Positions 7,882 to 31,935 of a stretch of 37,173 nt of DNA are shown one piece after another; within the stretch, counting starts at the first letter, position 1, and every line of letters begins with the position of its first letter. The position numbers and the translations under genes are program-made. Location: positions 1 to 37,173 of the forward strand of contig JAJZMH010000022.1 of NCBI GenBank assembly GCA_021850365.1, in the 5' to 3' direction. Source of the DNA: a bacterium (GTDB taxonomy: Bacteria > Patescibacteriota > Saccharimonadia > Saccharimonadales > UBA4665). The notes under the pieces were generated by a model, which made no database searches, was not told the DNA's origin, and was given only the letters and a program-made list of their open reading frames with translations.

Positions 7882-9024
7882 TTATATCAGTTTGTTTAAT
7901 ATTTTTAGCAATTTTTTAATATCTTCTAAAGTAGTTTTTCGACCTAGTGTAATTCTTATACTGTTTCGAACCTCATCATCAGATAAATTTATTGCTTTTA
8001 AAACGTGCGATAATTCTTCTTTTGCGGCATTACAGGCTGATCCGGAAGCAACCATAATGCCTTGTTGATCTAATTTTAAAATGAGCCATTCATTATCTAC
8101 CCCATCAATCCTAAAGTTAATATTATTAGCAATTCTTTTTGTTAGCGATCCATTAATTTTTATCCTGGGGTTTAAACTTAACTGCCTAATTAAATAATCT
8201 CTAATCTGAATAGTTCTTCTGCTTTCTTCTTCTTTAATTTGATGAGCCTTCTTTATAGCAAGGCAAAAACCATAAATATTGGCTAAATTTTCACTACCAC
8301 TTCTCAAATTATTTTCTTGTCCACCTCCTAGAATAAGTGCTTTTATTTTAGTATTGTTTTTAACATATAAAGCACCAGATTGTTTTGGACCATAAATTTT
8401 AGATCCATTTAAAGTCATTAAATCTACCCCTAAACTTGCTGGTTTTAGATTAAGATAATTAACTGCCTGACATGCGTCTGTGTGTAGATAAAGTGGGAGG
8501 TTATTTCCATTTTTTAGTCTCTTACTTAATATTTTATTGATCAGTCCTGAAATTAATCTTAGATCCTGAATAACTCCAATTTCGTTATTAGCTAAAATGA
8601 CACTAATTAAAACCGTCTTTTGATCAATTAATTTTTCAAGTTTATCTATTTCGATGATCCCTTGATTATTAACAGGGATAATCTTATGGTTATATTGCTC
8701 TGCTGGTTTTAGAATAGAATCATGTTCTATTGCAGAAACAAGAAGATTAGAACCTTTAAAGTTCTGCATTATTCCTGAAATGGCTAGATTATTGGCTTCT
8801 GTTCCCCCGCCAACAAAAATAATTTCAGAAGCTTTAACTTCTAGAATATGAGCAACATCGTATCTTGACTGTTCAAGAATATTTTTGGCTTTTAGACTCT
8901 CTTGATAAATTTCTGATGGATTATAGAAATGGTTTAAATAAATTTGATCCATCTGATTTAAAATATCCGGATCAATAGGAGTAGCAGCAGCATAATCTAG
9001 GTAGATTGATCGGCTTTTATTCAT
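7882..9024 (-). CDS. Cysteine desulfurase (NifS/IscS family)
   Basis: PLP enzyme that removes sulfur from cysteine for tRNA thiolation or Fe-S assembly. At 380 residues it has the normal length. Signatures: YLDYAAATP at the N-terminus, GGTEANNLAI, HTDACQAVNY for the cofactor, the PLP lysine Lys209 in GSKIYGPK, and the persulfide cysteine Cys331 in ASGSACN. The residue before the lysine is serine where many relatives have histidine. No IscU, IscA or SufU-like scaffold gene is in the window, and mnmA is a few genes downstream, so a role in tRNA thiolation is a reasonable inference. The WhiB-like proteins encoded here would also need an Fe-S source. Confidence 0.93.
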   Translation of the reverse strand: MNKSRSIYLDYAAATPIDPDILNQMDQIYLNHFYNPSEIYQESLKAKNILEQSRYDVAHILEVKASEIIFVGGGTEANNLAISGIMQNFKGSNLLVSAIEHDSILKPAEQYNHKIIPVNNQGIIEIDKLEKLIDQKTVLISVILANNEIGVIQDLRLISGLINKILSKRLKNGNNLPLYLHTDACQAVNYLNLKPASLGVDLMTLNGSKIYGPKQSGALYVKNNTKIKALILGGGQENNLRSGSENLANIYGFCLAIKKAHQIKEEESRRTIQIRDYLIRQLSLNPRIKINGSLTKRIANNINFRIDGVDNEWLILKLDQQGIMVASGSACNAAKEELSHVLKAINLSDDEVRNSIRITLGRKTTLEDIKKLLKILNKLI

Positions 9025-13888: not shown

Positions 13889-14279
13889 TGGTGGAGCTGC
13901 CGGTTATTGCGACCGGGTCCGTTCGTTTACCTGATTGAATCTCTACAAGTTTAGTTATTTTTGATTAAAGAAAAGTATCTAAAAATAACAAAAAAACTTT
14001 TCTTTTCCTAATTTAAGCTTACTTACTTGATAGTTTAGGAAATGCTAGCAAATAAGGCATCCAGATAATATTAAGCACTTAATCCGTATCTGAAGTAAAG
14101 AATAAGCACTGCTCTTGACTTATTTCTTAAGCAAAAGCTGGCGCAAAGTTTAATGGTCTAAAAAGATCAGCAACTTTACTAAAAATAGATTTTGCATCTA
14201 TAAATTTTGCCTATAACGCTGACAAGCGACTTGCTAATTCAACCGATAAAGTACAAACGTCGAGCTTAAATTCAGCCCC
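13889..14279 (-). ncRNA. ssrA: Transfer-messenger RNA (tmRNA)
   Basis: Rescues stalled ribosomes and tags the unfinished peptide. The 5' end GGGGCTG (14273-14279) pairs with the 3' CAGCTCC (13893-13899), followed by an encoded ACCA; flanking GGAC and CTCGACG match the conserved tRNA-like domain. The length is 391 nt. A tag frame starts at GCA (14195-14193), preceded by TAGAT as in E. coli TAGTC, and runs to TAA at 14127. It encodes 22 residues beginning AKSIFSKVADLF and ending NFAPAFA, a hydrophobic degron-like end. The T-arm is CCGGT/ACCGG with the loop CGCAATA, which lacks the usual TTC. The order acceptor, tag, pseudoknot region, T-arm shows a one-piece tmRNA. Confidence 0.95.
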
Positions 14280-14291
14280 ATCTAGCTTATG

Positions 14292-14320
14292 ATTATATAC
14301 TTTTTTTATAAATATTGCAA
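14292..14320 (-). promoter_or_regulatory. Promoter of ssrA
   Basis: On the minus strand a -35 TTGCAA (14315-14320) and a perfect -10 TATAAT (14292-14297) are separated by 17 bases. The mature tmRNA end at 14279 is 12 bases past the -10 box, consistent with a short 5' extension removed by RNase P. Confidence 0.8.
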
Positions 14321-14343
14321 AATTTTTAATAATATATTAAGAT
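14315..14343 (+). promoter_or_regulatory. Candidate divergent promoter for the whiB-like pair
   Basis: TTGCAA at 14315-14320 is its own reverse complement and could also serve the plus strand, with TAAGAT at 14338-14343 exactly 17 bases away. A start about seven bases later would fall just before or at the ATG at 14355, giving a leaderless or near-leaderless mRNA. Spacing is good, but the -10 is non-consensus in an AT-rich stretch. Confidence 0.45.
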
Positions 14344-14354
14344 ATATGGTTATT

Positions 14355-14711
14355 ATGGAAAAATTGTCAAACAAAATCACTGATCTAGCTAATTATAAAC
14401 TGTACGGTGACACTGAACCAAGATATCCCATAAAAACTGACTTAGCTAGAAAAGTTAATGTAAATATCTTTGATAAACGAGGATGTAAGGGAGAAAACCC
14501 AAATATGTGGTTTGCGACTCCAGATGATGACGAATTACCCAAATTATATGACTATAGTAGAAAGGCAAAACAGCTGTGTTTTAGATGTCCAATCCAACAA
14601 GAATGTTTTGATACCGCTATCGATAACGGAGAAGAATTTGGAATATGGGGTGGAATAAATATTGGGGTACTTCGGAGAGCATTAATAGCGGATTATAATA
14701 GCAAACAATAA
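14355..14711 (+). CDS. WhiB-like iron-sulfur protein, first of a pair
   Basis: Probable [4Fe-4S]-binding transcription regulator. Reading from the ATG at 14355 gives 118 residues with the WhiB cysteine pattern Cys44, Cys75-x2-Cys78, x5, Cys84, followed by the family turn GIWGG (residues 96-100) and a short basic end (RRALIADYN). The region after Cys44 (NPNMWFATPDD) corresponds to the usual acidic/aromatic stretch between the first and second cysteines. An ATG at 14346 is also in frame; the still longer reading from 14289 would overlap the ssrA promoter and is unlikely. Its stop overlaps the next whiB-like start by one base. WhiB proteins are regarded as an actinobacterial family, so transfer from, or shared history with, that phylum is an inference. 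Confidence 0.85.
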   Translation: MEKLSNKITDLANYKLYGDTEPRYPIKTDLARKVNVNIFDKRGCKGENPNMWFATPDDDELPKLYDYSRKAKQLCFRCPIQQECFDTAIDNGEEFGIWGGINIGVLRRALIADYNSKQ

Positions 14712-15067
14712 TGTCCCCTGAGTATAAGATAAGGTACCCGGTTGCATCTATTTCCTTAGAGGAAAAAGTAGGAAATATTAAGTACGAAGAAAGAAATTGT
14801 AAGAACGTATCAAAAGATATATTTTTTCCAAAAAAAGTTATTGATAGTTTTGTAGAAAACGGTGTGGAGAATATTAAGACAAGCCAGAGCTTTCAAAAAG
14901 AAATTGAAAAAGCTAAAAGTATATGTCAAGACTGTGATATTAAAGATCAATGCTTAATCGTAGCCATCGAAAATAATGAGCGTGATGGTGTTTTTGGAGG
15001 AGAATATTTTGGTGGACGGAATGGTTATAAAGTCAGAAAAAAAATTAATAATGTTAAAGAAAATTAA
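14711..15067 (+). CDS. WhiB-like iron-sulfur protein, second of a pair
   Basis: A divergent paralogue or partner of the preceding gene, 118 residues. It keeps the four cysteines (Cys30, Cys72-x2-Cys75, x5, Cys81) and a turn reading GVFGG (residues 93-97), with Phe in place of Trp. The first cysteine is followed by DIFFP, as in canonical WhiB proteins. The C-terminus is short and basic (GGRNGYKVRKKINN), suitable for DNA contact. Start and stop overlap as TAATG, so the two are translationally coupled and could form a hetero-pair. The 3' end overlaps the end of convergent rsmA by 14 bases. Sequence similarity between the two proteins is low outside the cysteine region. Confidence 0.8.
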   Translation: MSPEYKIRYPVASISLEEKVGNIKYEERNCKNVSKDIFFPKKVIDSFVENGVENIKTSQSFQKEIEKAKSICQDCDIKDQCLIVAIENNERDGVFGGEYFGGRNGYKVRKKINNVKEN

Positions 15068-15815
15068 AAATATCTATCCACTGATCTAAATCGATTGCTT
15101 GAGCTCTGATTAGTTGATCCATTTGATGATCAATGAGATACTTCTTGAATTTTTCTTTTGGGAAATTAGGTAACGTACCAAGATTATTTATTAAAGTTTT
15201 TCTTTTTGAACTAAAACCTATTTTAATTAATCTAAATAATTGATTAGTGTCAATGTCTGGTAATTTAAGTTTGGGTTTTAAGATAACTATTTTTGAATCA
15301 ACTTTCGGAACTGGATAAAACTTATCTTTTTCTATGTCATCACCCAAAGTTACTTCCCAATAAAATTGCGTTAAAAGACTTAAAATGCTATGTTTTCCTT
15401 TTGTTGCTGACATTCTAAGGGCAACTTCTTTTTGAACTAAGAGAACTATTAGAGTCGGCTTATATTTAATGTTTGAGAGAATTCGTATTAGATGTGATGT
15501 TAAATAATATGGAATATTACCAACTATTTTGTATTCTTCTTTAAGCTCATTGAAATTAAATCTTAAAATATCTTGATGAATTAATTTTAGATTAGCTAAT
15601 TTTTGTTTTTCTAGATCGTGAATTAGATTTTGATCTAGTTCAATAGCTATTACTTTTTTAACTTGAGAAAGTAAAAGCTTAGTTAAATTACCCGTTCCTG
15701 GCCCTATTTCTAAAATTAGATCATTTGGTTTAAGTTCGGTCCATGACGCTATATTAATTAAACTTTTTTGATCTACTAACCAATTCTGTCCTAATGATTT
15801 TTTTGGTTCAATCAT
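15054..15815 (-). CDS. rsmA: 16S rRNA dimethyladenosine transferase RsmA
   Basis: Dimethylates two adjacent adenosines near the 3' end of 16S rRNA with S-adenosylmethionine during 30S maturation. The 253-residue protein has the KSLGQNWL N-terminus, SAM motif I EIGPGTGN (residues 36-43), the acidic IAIELDQ strand, and the catalytic GNIPYYL motif. The C-terminal helical domain is present but compact. It starts three bases after the stop of the RpfB-like gene, so both are one transcription unit; this rpfB-ksgA pairing is also found in Actinobacteria. Confidence 0.96.
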   Translation of the reverse strand: MIEPKKSLGQNWLVDQKSLINIASWTELKPNDLILEIGPGTGNLTKLLLSQVKKVIAIELDQNLIHDLEKQKLANLKLIHQDILRFNFNELKEEYKIVGNIPYYLTSHLIRILSNIKYKPTLIVLLVQKEVALRMSATKGKHSILSLLTQFYWEVTLGDDIEKDKFYPVPKVDSKIVILKPKLKLPDIDTNQLFRLIKIGFSSKRKTLINNLGTLPNFPKEKFKKYLIDHQMDQLIRAQAIDLDQWIDIFNFL

Positions 15816-26393: not shown

Positions 26394-26970
26394 AAGACCG
26401 CAAGCACCATTGACTAAAAATGGTTTAAGTCAAGCAAAACTAATAGCCAATCGTTTGTCTGATATTAACTTTGACATAATTCTATCTAGTCCATATCAAA
26501 GAGCATTCCAAACAGCAGAAATTATAGGAAATAAAATAAATAAAAGTGTATTTGTTAAGGATTTTTTAAGAGAGATAACTAGTCCAAAAAGCATTCAAGG
26601 TAAAAAATATGATGATCCAATTGCTTCTAAGAAATGGAGAAAGTGGGAAAAAACTTTAAGGAATGGGGATCTAAAATTTGAAGACGGAGAAAATTATATA
26701 GAACATATTCAAAGAGTTGATCAAATCTTAACTTACCTTAAAAACTTGCCATTTTCAAAAATTGCTCTAGTCAGTCATGGGTATCTTATCCGAGCTTTAA
26801 TTTTTAGAGCAGTTTTAGACAACAGCCTTAATCCAGAAATATTAAACAAAATTCAAAACAAAATTAAATCTGAAAATACGGGAATATCGATCTTATTTTA
26901 TAGCGATGATTTTGAACAAGACTTCTCCTTTAGATTATATACCTACAATGATCACGCGCATTTTAGTTAA
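26311..26970 (+). CDS. Histidine phosphatase family protein
   Basis: Phosphoglycerate-mutase-like phosphatase of 219 residues. The phospho-acceptor is in YLIRHGQSEDN (RHG at residues 15-17), with the second arginine in SSPYQRAFQTAEII and the second histidine in LVSHGYLIRAL. Such enzymes act on small phosphate esters; the substrate is unknown, although an adjacent Nudix hydrolase in the ancestral layout suggests nucleotide or sugar-phosphate housekeeping. A truncated copy of its beginning remains at 24689. Its end overlaps the convergent CHAP gene by eight bases. Confidence 0.92.
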   Translation: MNIDLKDKKIVYLIRHGQSEDNLRPVFQRPQAPLTKNGLSQAKLIANRLSDINFDIILSSPYQRAFQTAEIIGNKINKSVFVKDFLREITSPKSIQGKKYDDPIASKKWRKWEKTLRNGDLKFEDGENYIEHIQRVDQILTYLKNLPFSKIALVSHGYLIRALIFRAVLDNSLNPEILNKIQNKIKSENTGISILFYSDDFEQDFSFRLYTYNDHAHFS

Positions 26971-27460
26971 TCTTACTATGAATAAAGTTATATTTAGATA
27001 TTTGATTAAAACTTATTGTTCGAGTATCTACTTCATCAAATCCAACCCTGTTCATTTCACTAATAGTAAAACTTTTTCCTTGAACTACATTAGTTACAAA
27101 GGCTACATGTCCTAAACCACCATAGGCATTAGGATCCTGCATAATAGCTCCAAATGATGGAATATCGTCTACTAAATATCCACTTTTTTGAGCATTTTTA
27201 GCCCAAGATATAGCATTTCCCCAGTCGGTCGGAATTGGTTCTTTTATCAATTCTCTTAAGTAATAAACCCAATAGGTGCAATTTCCAAATGCATAATAAT
27301 CCCCTTTTATTAAAGGTCCACTATAAATAAAAATATTCTTGTTATTCAAATATGAGTTTGAGCTAAGGGCACTTAAATTTGTTAGACTTGAGAGAGCGAT
27401 CGCTGGTAGGATCATTAATAAAATTATAATGCCTAGTATTAGCCCGTAAATACTTTTCAT
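26963..27460 (-). CDS. CHAP-domain peptidoglycan hydrolase
   Basis: Cysteine amidase/endopeptidase likely to open the cell wall for the secretion apparatus. The 165-residue protein starts with a signal-anchor helix (residues about 5-28), then a CHAP domain with the nucleophile Cys61 in YAFGNCTYWVY, His118 in GLGHVAFVT, and Glu135/Asn137 in ISEMN. It is the last gene of the T4SS operon, overlapping the VirB4 stop by four bases, in the place held by VirB1-like or NlpC/CHAP hydrolases in Gram-positive conjugation loci. It faces outward if the helix is a normal N-in anchor. Confidence 0.88.
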   Translation of the reverse strand: MKSIYGLILGIIILLMILPAIALSSLTNLSALSSNSYLNNKNIFIYSGPLIKGDYYAFGNCTYWVYYLRELIKEPIPTDWGNAISWAKNAQKSGYLVDDIPSFGAIMQDPNAYGGLGHVAFVTNVVQGKSFTISEMNRVGFDEVDTRTISFNQISKYNFIHSKIN

Positions 27461-29172
27461 TTTATGTAAAGTTCACTTGGGTCTGTTGTAATTAGCGGGT
27501 GTTCCTTTTTAGAGGCTATGATTTTAAGAGCTAAATGAGTCTGATCTACAATCATTAGCGCTTCCCCACGATCGGAAGTTAGCAAAAAATCTCTTTCAAA
27601 TTCACTAAGATTAAAAGATTTTTGAACCTGATCAATACTAGTACTATCTTGACGCATCAATATACGAATCATGCTCTGGGATGCAACAATTTTTCCATAT
27701 GGATTGTTTAAAAAGTCATTAGCTTGTTGGCTAATAATACTAATGCCTAAATAATATTTCCTTGCTCTTCTTACTAAACCTGCAATAAATTTAGCTGAAG
27801 TTGGATTTTCGAATAATAACCAACCTTCATCTATTATAAGAATTTGTTTACTTTTATTTTGTTTGACTGAGTTTGAGACAAAATTAGAAATCATAAACAT
27901 CATAATTGGTCTAATATTTTCAGATAAATCTTTTATATCAAAAACAATTAAACGATTATCCAAAGCTATATTTGTTTGAGAGTTAAATAGCTCGGATAAA
28001 CTACCAGTTACATATTTCTCTATTTTGGATAATAGATCTTTTTGATGATATTTTCTTAATCTTAGATAAAAATCTTTAAGAAGAGGTGGCGTTTTGGTTT
28101 CCTTTGCGTAGAGCTCTAAAAGTATTTTATCTACGATTGCTTTTTCATTTGTCTTTAATCCCTCGGCCATAACCTGAATAAAACTAGTTAAGTCTTGAAT
28201 GTGTTGAGTTTTATCTTTGTTGTTTAATTTTGAATAAAGAGAATCAAATGGATTAATTTTTTGTTTTGAGTTTATAGTTATTTTGATATACGACCCAGAT
28301 AACGATTCAGCCAATGAACGGTACTCACCTTCTGGATCAATTACTATAACCTTAGTACCGTCATTTAATTGACGAATAATCTCAACTTTTGTTAGATAAC
28401 TTTTTCCACTTCCACTTTGAGCAAATATTATTGAATTAGCATTTGCTAAACTAAACCGATCAACAATCACTAATGAATTATTGGATTTATTTATTCCATA
28501 AAGAACTCCCGAAGGATGTACTAAATCTGAAGACATAAATGGGAAGGTTAATGCGAGCGAAGAACTATCTATGTTTCTTTGATGAGTTAAATTATTTTCG
28601 GCTCTTGGCAGAATTGATCGGAGTGCTTCAATTTGTTGATACCTGGAAACTTTAGTATAAAAGAGTTTTGAAGCCATTACCGATTCCAACATTGAAGTTA
28701 TTTTGTTAAGTTCAGAAAGCGAGTTCGCACGAAGTCCAATATAGATACTCAGTTGAAATAATTTTTGTTGCCCTCTAAGTATCTTGTCTCTCAAATCTAT
28801 TGCTGAGTCTAGAGGATCAGTAATTTCGGAACCTATAATCTTACCATCTCTTAACATAGTTCTTTTTGTTGATTCAAGTTCAGTAATCTTACGATTCAAC
28901 TTAGGTAGAGCCTGAGAAGATGGAATTTCTTGAATATGATATGAAATATCTGAGTTATACCCAAAATTAATTAAATTATCTAACCATCCGCTAACTGCTA
29001 CAAATGGAAATCCAACAATGTATAAACAGCGTAAATATTGATTATCTATTTTTAAATAATCTTCATTCTCTTTAAGACCTTCATATGAGAATAAATCAAT
29101 TATCGTTAGTGAATCGTTTTTGATTAAATTTGGCAAATTAACTTTTTTATCTAGAATTTCTTTGATCTTCAT
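27457..29172 (-). CDS. virB4: VirB4/TraC-family secretion ATPase
   Basis: Energises assembly of, and transport through, the T4SS. The 571-residue protein has a membrane-proximal N-terminal domain, Walker A FAQSGSGKSYLT at about residue 252, VIDPEGEYRSL, Walker B LIIDEGWLLF, and the RARKYYLGISIISQQ and conserved C-terminal segments of the VirB4 clade. The N-terminal domain is shorter than in TraC-type proteins, and a separate upstream protein probably supplies another part. It overlaps both neighbours (26 bases upstream, 4 downstream). The absence of a relaxase or coupling protein nearby argues against a self-transferable element. Confidence 0.93.
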   Translation of the reverse strand: MKIKEILDKKVNLPNLIKNDSLTIIDLFSYEGLKENEDYLKIDNQYLRCLYIVGFPFVAVSGWLDNLINFGYNSDISYHIQEIPSSQALPKLNRKITELESTKRTMLRDGKIIGSEITDPLDSAIDLRDKILRGQQKLFQLSIYIGLRANSLSELNKITSMLESVMASKLFYTKVSRYQQIEALRSILPRAENNLTHQRNIDSSSLALTFPFMSSDLVHPSGVLYGINKSNNSLVIVDRFSLANANSIIFAQSGSGKSYLTKVEIIRQLNDGTKVIVIDPEGEYRSLAESLSGSYIKITINSKQKINPFDSLYSKLNNKDKTQHIQDLTSFIQVMAEGLKTNEKAIVDKILLELYAKETKTPPLLKDFYLRLRKYHQKDLLSKIEKYVTGSLSELFNSQTNIALDNRLIVFDIKDLSENIRPIMMFMISNFVSNSVKQNKSKQILIIDEGWLLFENPTSAKFIAGLVRRARKYYLGISIISQQANDFLNNPYGKIVASQSMIRILMRQDSTSIDQVQKSFNLSEFERDFLLTSDRGEALMIVDQTHLALKIIASKKEHPLITTDPSELYIK

Positions 29173-29800
29173 TTAATTTCTCCTTTTTAGAAATTGGGGT
29201 GTCTTGAATATTAAACTGATCTAAAATAATAGGCTGGATTTTGGCTTTTATTGGATTATAAAAACTATAAAATAAATCGATTATAGCTAGTGAATCTAGT
29301 GGAAATGAAATAATATTTAATTTTTTTAAATTTTTTTGAATTAATTCTATTCTTAATTCTAGTTGTTTTTTAACTAAATTAAATTCTTGCCCTTGATCTA
29401 GTTCAATAGGAATAATTACATAAAAGAATTTAGAGAGTATCTTATTTTGGCTCACTAACTCTAGCACAAAGTTTTTATATTCTTTTAAGTTTTGTAAGTA
29501 TATTGAATTTTTTTCTTTTTTTATTTTCTGATTAATACTACCTAAGTAATCGTCTATATCCATTTCCCTAGTACGGATCAATATTTGGATAGGAAAGTTT
29601 AGTGAGTTCAAAAATCCTTCATAAATATCTATCACATTGTCTTGTTCTGACTCATTTTTTAGTTGAAAGTTTATTGAGGAAGTTTGGATGATTGTAAAAT
29701 ATTTATAGTTGTTTATTTTGACTATTCCAGAACGAATATCTTGAATGCCTATTTGATCAATTGAAGACCCTTTCTTATTAAATATTTGAAATTTGAACAT
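29147..29800 (-). CDS. T4SS accessory protein, TraC N-domain-like
   Basis: The 217-residue cytoplasmic protein resembles the N-terminal, ATP-site-free part of VirB4/TraC-like proteins found as a separate gene in Gram-positive and Patescibacteria T4SS loci. Pattern: a beta-rich opening (GIVKINNYKYFTIIQTSSINF), then helices with a small insertion containing LNFPIQILIRTREMDIDDYL, and IELDQGQEFNLVKKQLELRIELIQK. No Walker motif is present. It overlaps prgI upstream and virB4 downstream, which supports a direct role with VirB4. The assignment is by pattern and position only. Confidence 0.65.
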   Translation of the reverse strand: MFKFQIFNKKGSSIDQIGIQDIRSGIVKINNYKYFTIIQTSSINFQLKNESEQDNVIDIYEGFLNSLNFPIQILIRTREMDIDDYLGSINQKIKKEKNSIYLQNLKEYKNFVLELVSQNKILSKFFYVIIPIELDQGQEFNLVKKQLELRIELIQKNLKKLNIISFPLDSLAIIDLFYSFYNPIKAKIQPIILDQFNIQDTPISKKEKLNEDQRNSR

Positions 29801-30257
29801 AAAGTTTTCCTTTCTTATTAAATTTAAAAACGTACTTATCTGAATCTTTGACTAGTTCGCTTAAATGATCAGTTTGTCTTGAGGATGGGATTATTTCTGA
29901 TCTTACTTTTTTTGAAGACATTTTAGTTATATTCAATTCTGGATTATGATTATATTTACTTGACGGAGTTAAGACATATATCCTGGGTCTAAGTAAAAAA
30001 CTAAGGTATAAAATTAAATAATTTAGAACTAAGTTTTGATCACGTCTTCGTATTGCCAGGACAGAAATGGAGCCACTAAGAATAATGCTGGGAATTAATT
30101 TTAAAAGACTAAATTTTAAAAATGGAGGAATTACCAAATATATAAAGAAACTTATCAGGAGAGCCAATATTAAAATAATGATTTGGGTGATACTAAGTGA
30201 TGATGTAATTTTATCTTCTACGTTAGTAATTTGAGCTGGTATAACGGAAACACGCAT
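29778..30257 (-). CDS. PrgI-family membrane protein (VirB3-like)
   Basis: A small inner-membrane T4SS component, 159 residues. After the short start MRVSVIPAQITNVEDKI come two membrane helices (about 25-44 and 48-66), then the characteristic RRRDQNLVLNYLILYLSFLLRPRIYV segment, and a polar tail. PrgI proteins occupy the VirB3 position, next to VirB4. It lies nine bases after the stop of the VirB6-like gene and overlaps the next gene by 23 bases. Confidence 0.88.
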   Translation of the reverse strand: MRVSVIPAQITNVEDKITSSLSITQIIILILALLISFFIYLVIPPFLKFSLLKLIPSIILSGSISVLAIRRRDQNLVLNYLILYLSFLLRPRIYVLTPSSKYNHNPELNITKMSSKKVRSEIIPSSRQTDHLSELVKDSDKYVFKFNKKGKLYVQISNI

Positions 30258-30266
30258 CGTGACCTT

Positions 30267-31604
30267 TTAAGTCCTTTCTCCGTAGTAACTTGGTTGAGAA
30301 TTTTTTTGGTTGGATGAAAAAGGAGTATACTCTATTCTTTTTTTAGTACTCCCTCCAGGAATAACAAGTTGAATACTTCTTCTAAGAATTCCAGCAGTTT
30401 GACTAAATCCTCCTAATAATTTTGAAGTACTTTTGCTGGCATATCTTGCGCTTGTAGACAGATAACTTAAATTACTAATTACACCTTGAGTTTTTAAAAG
30501 AGTAACTAAGGTGGCTAGACCTAGCAAAATAGACATTAATGGATCCGGGAGACCGTTATTAGCCGCTGCCATTCCAGCCATTAATGAGGCTGCTAGTTCA
30601 ATAATTACAACGTGAAAAAATAAAACAAAAATAGTACTTATATATTTTTTAAGAGCAGTTACCGCTAAGTCTCTTAAACCAGGGATTATAAAAAGTAAAA
30701 TAACAATTGGAGCAAGGATTATTCCAAGATAAATTGTCACAATCCGAAGTAGATAATAAATAATCAAGATTACGCTTAAAATAATAAAAATAAGCATAAT
30801 CAACAGTACAGCTAAGCTATAAACTGAGGATTGATTTATAACTAGTTTTAAAATATTCCAAAATGAATTAATAACGTTTGTATTTGAGATAGCTTTGATC
30901 ATGATATTAGAGATCTGGATAATAAAATCAATTATGTAAATTGAGCTATTAATTAAAACAAATGCAAAACCAATTTGGGGAAGTAATTGTGAAATACTAA
31001 CTTCCGTAAATCCAAATACAGAAAAACTCATTATTCTAAAACCAAGTAATACTATAACTAAAAATAACAGCCCGTCAGCAATACCGACTGAGCTTAGCCA
31101 TAGATCATAAACTGCTTTATTATTAGCTCCTAGTGAAGTACCCGCGGTAAAGTAAGATATTGCTTTAATAAAAGGAGAGCCAATGGTTTCGATAATGCTC
31201 CCAAAAACCCCTGCAATAGCCTTAATAATAATTGCCACAATTCCAGAAGAAGGATTTTTGGGTTTTATGTTTGAAAGTAATGGAATCTGATTATTAACTT
31301 TGCTAGATCCAACCTGACCGTAACTTGAGATAAATAAGTTACTTAAAAACATTCCAGAGATAATGATCACTAATCCAATGACAGAATTTAAAATTATTTT
31401 CTTAGCCTTAGTTAATTTATAAATATTTCCAGAAGAAGTTATGTAACTATACCCACCAATTAGAATAAATAAAACAGCCACAATAGCACCTAATCCTGAC
31501 AGCATATCTATAATTGGAAGTAGCGATGAATGAACTGAGGAAGTGATTGAGGATACGGTTGAAAACAATCCTAAATCTATCAAAGTTTTATCCCCCAAAT
31601 GCAT
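30267..31604 (-). CDS. VirB6/TrbL-like channel protein with a pilin-like front
   Basis: Polytopic membrane protein of 445 residues that would form the T4SS channel. About 8-9 helices are visible. Residues about 30-95 (IGGYSYITSSGNIYKLTKAKK, then two hydrophobic stretches) look like the VirB2-like protein encoded just upstream, so the protein appears to be a pilin-type domain joined to a VirB6-type body. The C-terminal 50 residues are a polar cytoplasmic tail. An ATG at 31604 overlaps virB2; a TTG at 31583 four bases past the virB2 stop with GGGGGA before it is a credible alternative start. Confidence 0.82.
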   Translation of the reverse strand: MHLGDKTLIDLGLFSTVSSITSSVHSSLLPIIDMLSGLGAIVAVLFILIGGYSYITSSGNIYKLTKAKKIILNSVIGLVIIISGMFLSNLFISSYGQVGSSKVNNQIPLLSNIKPKNPSSGIVAIIIKAIAGVFGSIIETIGSPFIKAISYFTAGTSLGANNKAVYDLWLSSVGIADGLLFLVIVLLGFRIMSFSVFGFTEVSISQLLPQIGFAFVLINSSIYIIDFIIQISNIMIKAISNTNVINSFWNILKLVINQSSVYSLAVLLIMLIFIILSVILIIYYLLRIVTIYLGIILAPIVILLFIIPGLRDLAVTALKKYISTIFVLFFHVVIIELAASLMAGMAAANNGLPDPLMSILLGLATLVTLLKTQGVISNLSYLSTSARYASKSTSKLLGGFSQTAGILRRSIQLVIPGGSTKKRIEYTPFSSNQKNSQPSYYGERT

Positions 31605-31935
31605 TAGTAGCTAGAGACGTAACAATATTGGATAGAACAAATGATCCTATAGTTATAGCTAATCCAATAGCTGAATATAAGATAGTTCTTTTAGCTTTTT
31701 CTAATTTATGGGGATTGCCACTTGAGGTTATGTAACTAAATCCACCTACTATAAAGTACCCTGTAGCAACTAAACCAGCTAAACCAGCCATAATTTGAAT
31801 AATGCTTTTAATAAAACTAGATATTTGACTTACGCTAGCCGTAGAGGAGAATGCAAATACATTATTAAAATCAAGTAAGATAATAAAAACACTAATAATC
31901 AGTAGCTCGATCCATTTTTTAATTCTATTTTTCAA
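31588..31935 (-). CDS. virB2: VirB2/TrbC-like pilin-type membrane protein
   Basis: Predicted T4SS pilus or channel subunit, 115 residues. It has a secretion signal (WIELLIISVFIILLDF, cleavage near VFA-FSS) and two membrane helices separated by the short polar loop GGFSYITSSGNPHKLEKAK. The start is TTG at 31935, supported by an ideal GGAGG site six bases before it. It is the first gene of the T4SS unit. The loop phrase SYITSSGN recurs in the next gene. Confidence 0.8.
   Translation of the reverse strand: MKNRIKKWIELLIISVFIILLDFNNVFAFSSTASVSQISSFIKSIIQIMAGLAGLVATGYFIVGGFSYITSSGNPHKLEKAKRTILYSAIGLAITIGSFVLSNIVTSLATNAFGG

Follow-up and report, generated by a model that had tools for sequence, protein, structure and literature searches.

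Two overlapping genes between ssrA and ksgA

Does the window analysed here, the whole stretch of 37,173 nucleotides, encode genuine WhiB-like (Wbl) proteins in an organism outside the Actinobacteria and, if so, what might two such proteins do there? The sequence-only reading had placed the pair in such an organism, and the source genome (653 kb in 35 contigs, 91% complete) is indeed that of a Saccharibacterium, a member of a class known as episymbionts of Actinobacteria. The two genes are the only Wbl genes found in this genome. ORF1 (14355..14711, + strand) encodes a protein of 118 amino acids with cysteines at positions 44, 75, 78 and 84, an aromatic pair W52-F53 and the turn GIWGG. ORF2 (14711..15067, + strand), also of 118 amino acids, has cysteines at positions 30, 72, 75 and 81, an aromatic pair F38-F39, the turn GVFGG and a basic C-terminal tail. 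The stop codon of ORF1 and the start codon of ORF2 overlap by one base (TAATG), and because this base is common to both, the two genes are probably translationally coupled.

The pair is flanked by the tmRNA gene ssrA (13889..14279, - strand; Rfam RF00023, 72.2 bits) and by a convergent rRNA dimethyltransferase gene, ksgA/rsmA (15054..15815, - strand), which was named from its sequence in the list of open reading frames and at its stop end shares 14 nt with ORF2. Between the tmRNA and ORF1 lies a divergent AT-rich region (14280..14354) containing a palindromic TTGCAA (14315-14320), which could serve as a -35 element in both directions, with a TATAAT 17 nt away on the tmRNA side and just a weak TAAGAT towards ORF1. 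This shared -35 element is kept as a remark only, since a consensus scan, with four found against 2.7 expected, is not above chance. The tmRNA side of the region is conserved in the congeneric loci L053 and L411, and in the former a TTGCAA (7945-7950) is separated by 17 nt from a TATAAT in each direction. Two alternative in-frame ATG starts exist for ORF1, at 14346 and 14289; the latter would fall inside the probable tmRNA promoter, which leaves 14355 or 14346 as the preferred start. The Wbl mRNA could be leaderless.

Comparison with two congeners shows how the locus varies. G002 (locus L053) has the same trehalase-tmRNA-Wbl-ksgA-G5 order with a single Wbl gene, which also overlaps ksgA by 14 bases and likewise has a phenylalanine in its turn (GIFGG). 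In G001 the tmRNA and ksgA are approximately 125 bases apart with no Wbl gene between them; this genome has a different Wbl gene adjoining a transporter, which it has in common with G002. From these comparisons ORF1 and ORF2 are taken to be resident chromosomal genes and not contamination, and Wbl genes have evidently been gained, duplicated or lost within the genus. Of the two, ORF1 most resembles the transporter-linked Wbl gene in G001, and ORF2 its counterpart in G002, so the pair appears to be part of a genus-level set rather than a very recent duplication.

Identity and predicted fold of ORF1 and ORF2

Both proteins are genuine members of the Wbl family. They score well above the curated cut-off (23.6 bits) of the Pfam Whib profile PF02467, with 59.3 bits (E = 5.6e-16) for ORF1 and 47.6 bits (E = 2.6e-12) for ORF2, both match phage WhiB families in PHROGs, and the sequence of ORF1 matches PDB chains of WhiB4, WhiB1, WhiB3 and WhiB7. 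The four cysteines of each protein and the turns GIWGG (ORF1) and GVFGG (ORF2), already noticed in the two overlapping genes from sequence alone, are present, and the cysteines do not vary in any of the 44 rows of an alignment that includes actinobacterial and viral Wbl proteins. AlphaFold2 models, both guided by Wbl alignments, have a mean pLDDT of 68 (ORF1) and 73 (ORF2) and a Wbl-like fold, their good PDB fold matches being Wbl structures only, most of which were solved with sigma region 4. The top matches of the ORF1 model are WhiB3 and WhiB1, with a significant E-value of 1.5e-4, and the best 14 matches of the ORF2 model are all Wbl proteins, with high probability and weak E-values (0.02 at best).

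The proteins share with actinobacterial Wbls (PF02467; WhiB1-WhiB7 of Mycobacterium tuberculosis, WhiB and WhiD of Streptomyces) the four cysteines, the aromatic pair after the first of these, the G-x-[WF]-GG turn, a helical fold (predicted here) and a small size; they differ in being saccharibacterial, in tandem and coupled. In addition, ORF1 has the G[V/I]W[G/A]G turn complete whereas ORF2 has all of it but the tryptophan, a residue which is essential in WhiB3 and is replaced by phenylalanine here. Unlike the actinobacterial proteins in general, neither ORF1 nor ORF2 has a tryptophan before the first cysteine, a feature also lacking in WhiB7, in which the cluster is exposed and more sensitive to O2 (PMC10245118).

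The same anatomy is seen across the class, for which 120 Wbl neighbourhoods were fetched and 136 saccharibacterial Wbl domains aligned. The four cysteines are invariant in every row with letters at those positions (134-136 of 136), so that their conservation extends to close relatives, and the residues around them are conserved also. The first aromatic residue after the first cysteine is phenylalanine in 122/136 domains; the tryptophan of the turn is kept in 108/136 and is phenylalanine in four, among them ORF2 and the syntenic congener gene. Adjacent Wbl genes on the same strand occur at 11 of the fetched loci and in the window, making 12 genomes, with up to four genes in a row; in four actinobacterial genomes the 27 Wbl genes all stand apart from one another. 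Some Wbl domains of the class carry long extensions of unknown function (373-960 amino acids in total; L071:5488-8370, L080:6955-8316 and L058:8495-9616), and one of these three proteins has MarR-like helix-turn-helix matches.

Distribution of Wbl genes

Wbl genes were identified in all three genomes of the genus and in 109 of 393 genomes of the class Saccharibacteria. In a sample of the phylum they were present in 18/380 genomes, all 18 of them within this class; no match was obtained among about 343 sampled genomes of Patescibacteria outside it, nor in any of 45 genomes of one other class. The difference between the class and the rest of the Patescibacteria gives a Fisher p of about 1e-33, which serves as a guide only as the genomes are related. 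Wbls have been stated to be exclusive to Actinobacteria (PMC6282962, PMC10245118, PMC7363131) and reviews treat them as a hallmark of that group. With over a quarter of the sampled Saccharibacteria carrying them, and no other sampled Patescibacteria, this confinement does not hold, a result that concerns the range of the family and not its structure. A search of the open-access literature, with subscription papers outside its scope, found no report of Wbl proteins in Saccharibacteria, and protein databases may well list saccharibacterial Wbl sequences already. Such a distribution ties the gene family to an epibiont and its host, and it supplies a specific regulator for experiments on bacteria in which gene control is poorly understood.

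Origin of the pair

The Wbl domain of G090, a member of the window's family, has 61-84% identity to actinobacterial WhiB. In a tree of 175 Wbl domains, built on 71 columns, 101 of the 169 branches are open and the window pair cannot be placed, its nearest relatives being other saccharibacterial Wbls. To explain the starred branches, three or more changes between Saccharibacteria and Actinobacteria are needed, which suggests, as far as a short alignment and a quick tree allow, more than one exchange of Wbl genes between the two. It had been proposed from the sequence that the regulator was acquired from, or shared with, the actinobacterial hosts. Sharing is borne out by the class-restricted range, the identity of the G090 domain and the changes on the tree; a host origin of this particular pair is not, given its saccharibacterial relatives and the poor resolution of the 71 columns.

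A phage might be another source. Wbl genes are common in actinophages and occur also on viral contigs, and the Wbls of mycobacteriophages and Streptomyces phages have the same domain, with about 28-48% core identity to the window proteins. No near relative of ORF1 or ORF2 was found in the phage and viral sets, and a phage origin of the pair was rejected as none was present among the viral contigs. A reading of the pair as a remnant or passenger of some mobile element or phage, with no role in the cell, would fit both the abundance of such genes in actinophages and the patchy presence of Wbl genes at the ssrA-ksgA locus within the genus. It is nevertheless improbable, for besides the lack of near viral relatives, no phage gene adjoins the pair, a diverged Wbl gene stands at the same locus in a congener, both frames are open with their cysteines conserved, and fixed chromosomal positions of Wbl genes recur across the class.

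Association with sigma factors

Actinobacterial Wbls act by gripping a sigma factor (PMC10245118, PMC7363131, PMC5741622, PMC6282962), and the neighbourhoods of the saccharibacterial genes point to the same kind of partner. In 27 of the 117 class neighbourhoods on which loci were counted, the distance from a Wbl gene is no more than 6 kb to rpoD or 2.5 kb to polA, the usual order being dnaG-rpoD-(kinase)-whiB-polA (for example L064, L065, L081 and L145), where approximately three would be expected by chance if relatedness is ignored. Additional to these 27 is L128, in which the Wbl gene sits beside another sigma-like gene coding for a sigma region 4 protein. Extra sigma paralogs lie beside Wbl genes in L074 and L084, which also have a Wbl gene in the dnaG-rpoD-polA interval.

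Two proteins join the functions in one chain. In both, a Wbl domain comes after a sigma-70 part, which comprises regions 2, 3 and 4 in the product of L131:7010-8377 (- strand), a gene that adjoins three more Wbl genes, and regions 1.2 and 2 in that of L426:2266-3801 (- strand), a locus of the same family as the window. They come from different saccharibacterial families and are apparently independent fusions. A natural fusion of this type is known in WblP of Streptomyces, in which the partner is an ECF sigma factor, and three wbl genes of that genus are located near genes for sigma factors (PMC6282962); the saccharibacterial fusions differ from WblP in having sigma-70 regions 2-4 (L131) or 1.2-2 (L426), and the window pair is unfused. 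The rpoD linkage and the fusions together suggest that the partner of Wbls in this class is likewise a sigma factor, with all of these cases lying in genera other than the window's and no Wbl gene present in the rpoD-polA interval of the source genome.

We consider it probable that ORF1 and ORF2 are a coupled pair of genuine Wbl proteins, resident between ssrA and ksgA, which bear a cluster and bind region 4 of the sigma factor. In each protein the four cysteines would bind a metal-sulfur cluster around which the chain folds. The G-x-[WF]-GG turn and the two aromatic residues that follow the first cysteine would hold the housekeeping sigma factor by its region 4, thereby redirecting RNA polymerase at selected promoters. 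Oxidants or NO, by damaging the cluster, would end this effect, and the two copies, with GIWGG and GVFGG, may compete for the same sigma surface or divide it between them. The sensing of redox state or of host contact, which the sequence-only reading had assigned to the pair, is plausible by analogy with the actinobacterial proteins.

Several features speak against this mechanism: the phenylalanine in the turn of ORF2, the lack in both proteins of a tryptophan before the first cysteine, the missing SufB/D described below and, on the sigma side, one residue of the proposed contact. Histidine 516 of sigma-A is essential for WhiB3 binding, which is abolished by its replacement (PMC10245118). In a hand alignment from the C-terminus, the RpoD of the source genome has lysine at this position in region 4, unlike Mycobacterium sigma-A, followed by histidine, and the equivalent of R515 is kept. 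The lysine and the retained arginine are found, by the same hand alignment, in every RpoD of the class examined and in several from outside it.

The target could conversely lie in the host, with the two proteins released as decoys that bind the sigma factor of the actinobacterial cell. Such decoys have in their favour only the actinobacterial range of the family elsewhere and the episymbiotic life of the class on Actinobacteria. Neither sequence shows, by eye, a signal for export, and the Wbl genes of relatives are linked or fused to the sigma factors of their own genomes, so that decoys are very improbable indeed. Binding to the cell's own sigma factor, the preferred reading, is open to experiment by way of the rpoD-adjacent genes and the sigma-Wbl fusions.

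Cofactor and partner genes

SufB/D (SUFBD_core) is missing from the source genome and from 27 of 28 relatives, that is from 28/29 genomes, and is present in 14/14 controls. For this reason a [4Fe-4S] cluster in ORF1 and ORF2 is unproven, and the cluster would need another source or the proteins another metal. The cysteines of a Wbl fold could then hold zinc or form a thiol-disulfide switch, giving an adaptor that binds sigma with no [4Fe-4S] cluster. The pattern of SUFBD_core agrees with such an adaptor, as does the presence in the window (7882-9024) of a gene for a NifS-like desulfurase (aminotransferase-V) with no recognisable scaffold gene beside it. Against it, the search for cluster assembly covered only SUFBD_core, so that a scaffold of the ISC or NIF type (IscU, NifU) may be present, the G090 domain reaches 84% identity with actinobacterial WhiB, and conserved residues surround the cysteines. 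A different cofactor is on balance unlikely and the cluster-bearing form is preferred, which makes the origin of the cluster a direct question.

A second partner expected from the actinobacterial systems is also missing. Class II WhiB works with WhiA, and no HTH_WhiA match was found in the source genome, which is 91% complete. On a wider scale, the tandems, fusions and rpoD-linked genes may form a Wbl-sigma network specific to the class, exchanged with the host phylum, independent of SUF and WhiA and perhaps using a different cofactor; this is a tentative proposal, to which we give a little less than an even chance.

Two further features were observed. Within the family to which the window belongs, a Wbl gene is found repeatedly with a pilB-like ATPase gene on one side and rplS on the other (L069, L101, L110, L153, L162, L166 and L168). 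The window itself also contains a type IV secretion-like cluster (26963-31935) coding for a TraG/VirB4-type ATPase, a CHAP hydrolase and small membrane proteins, which is a possible host-attachment apparatus.
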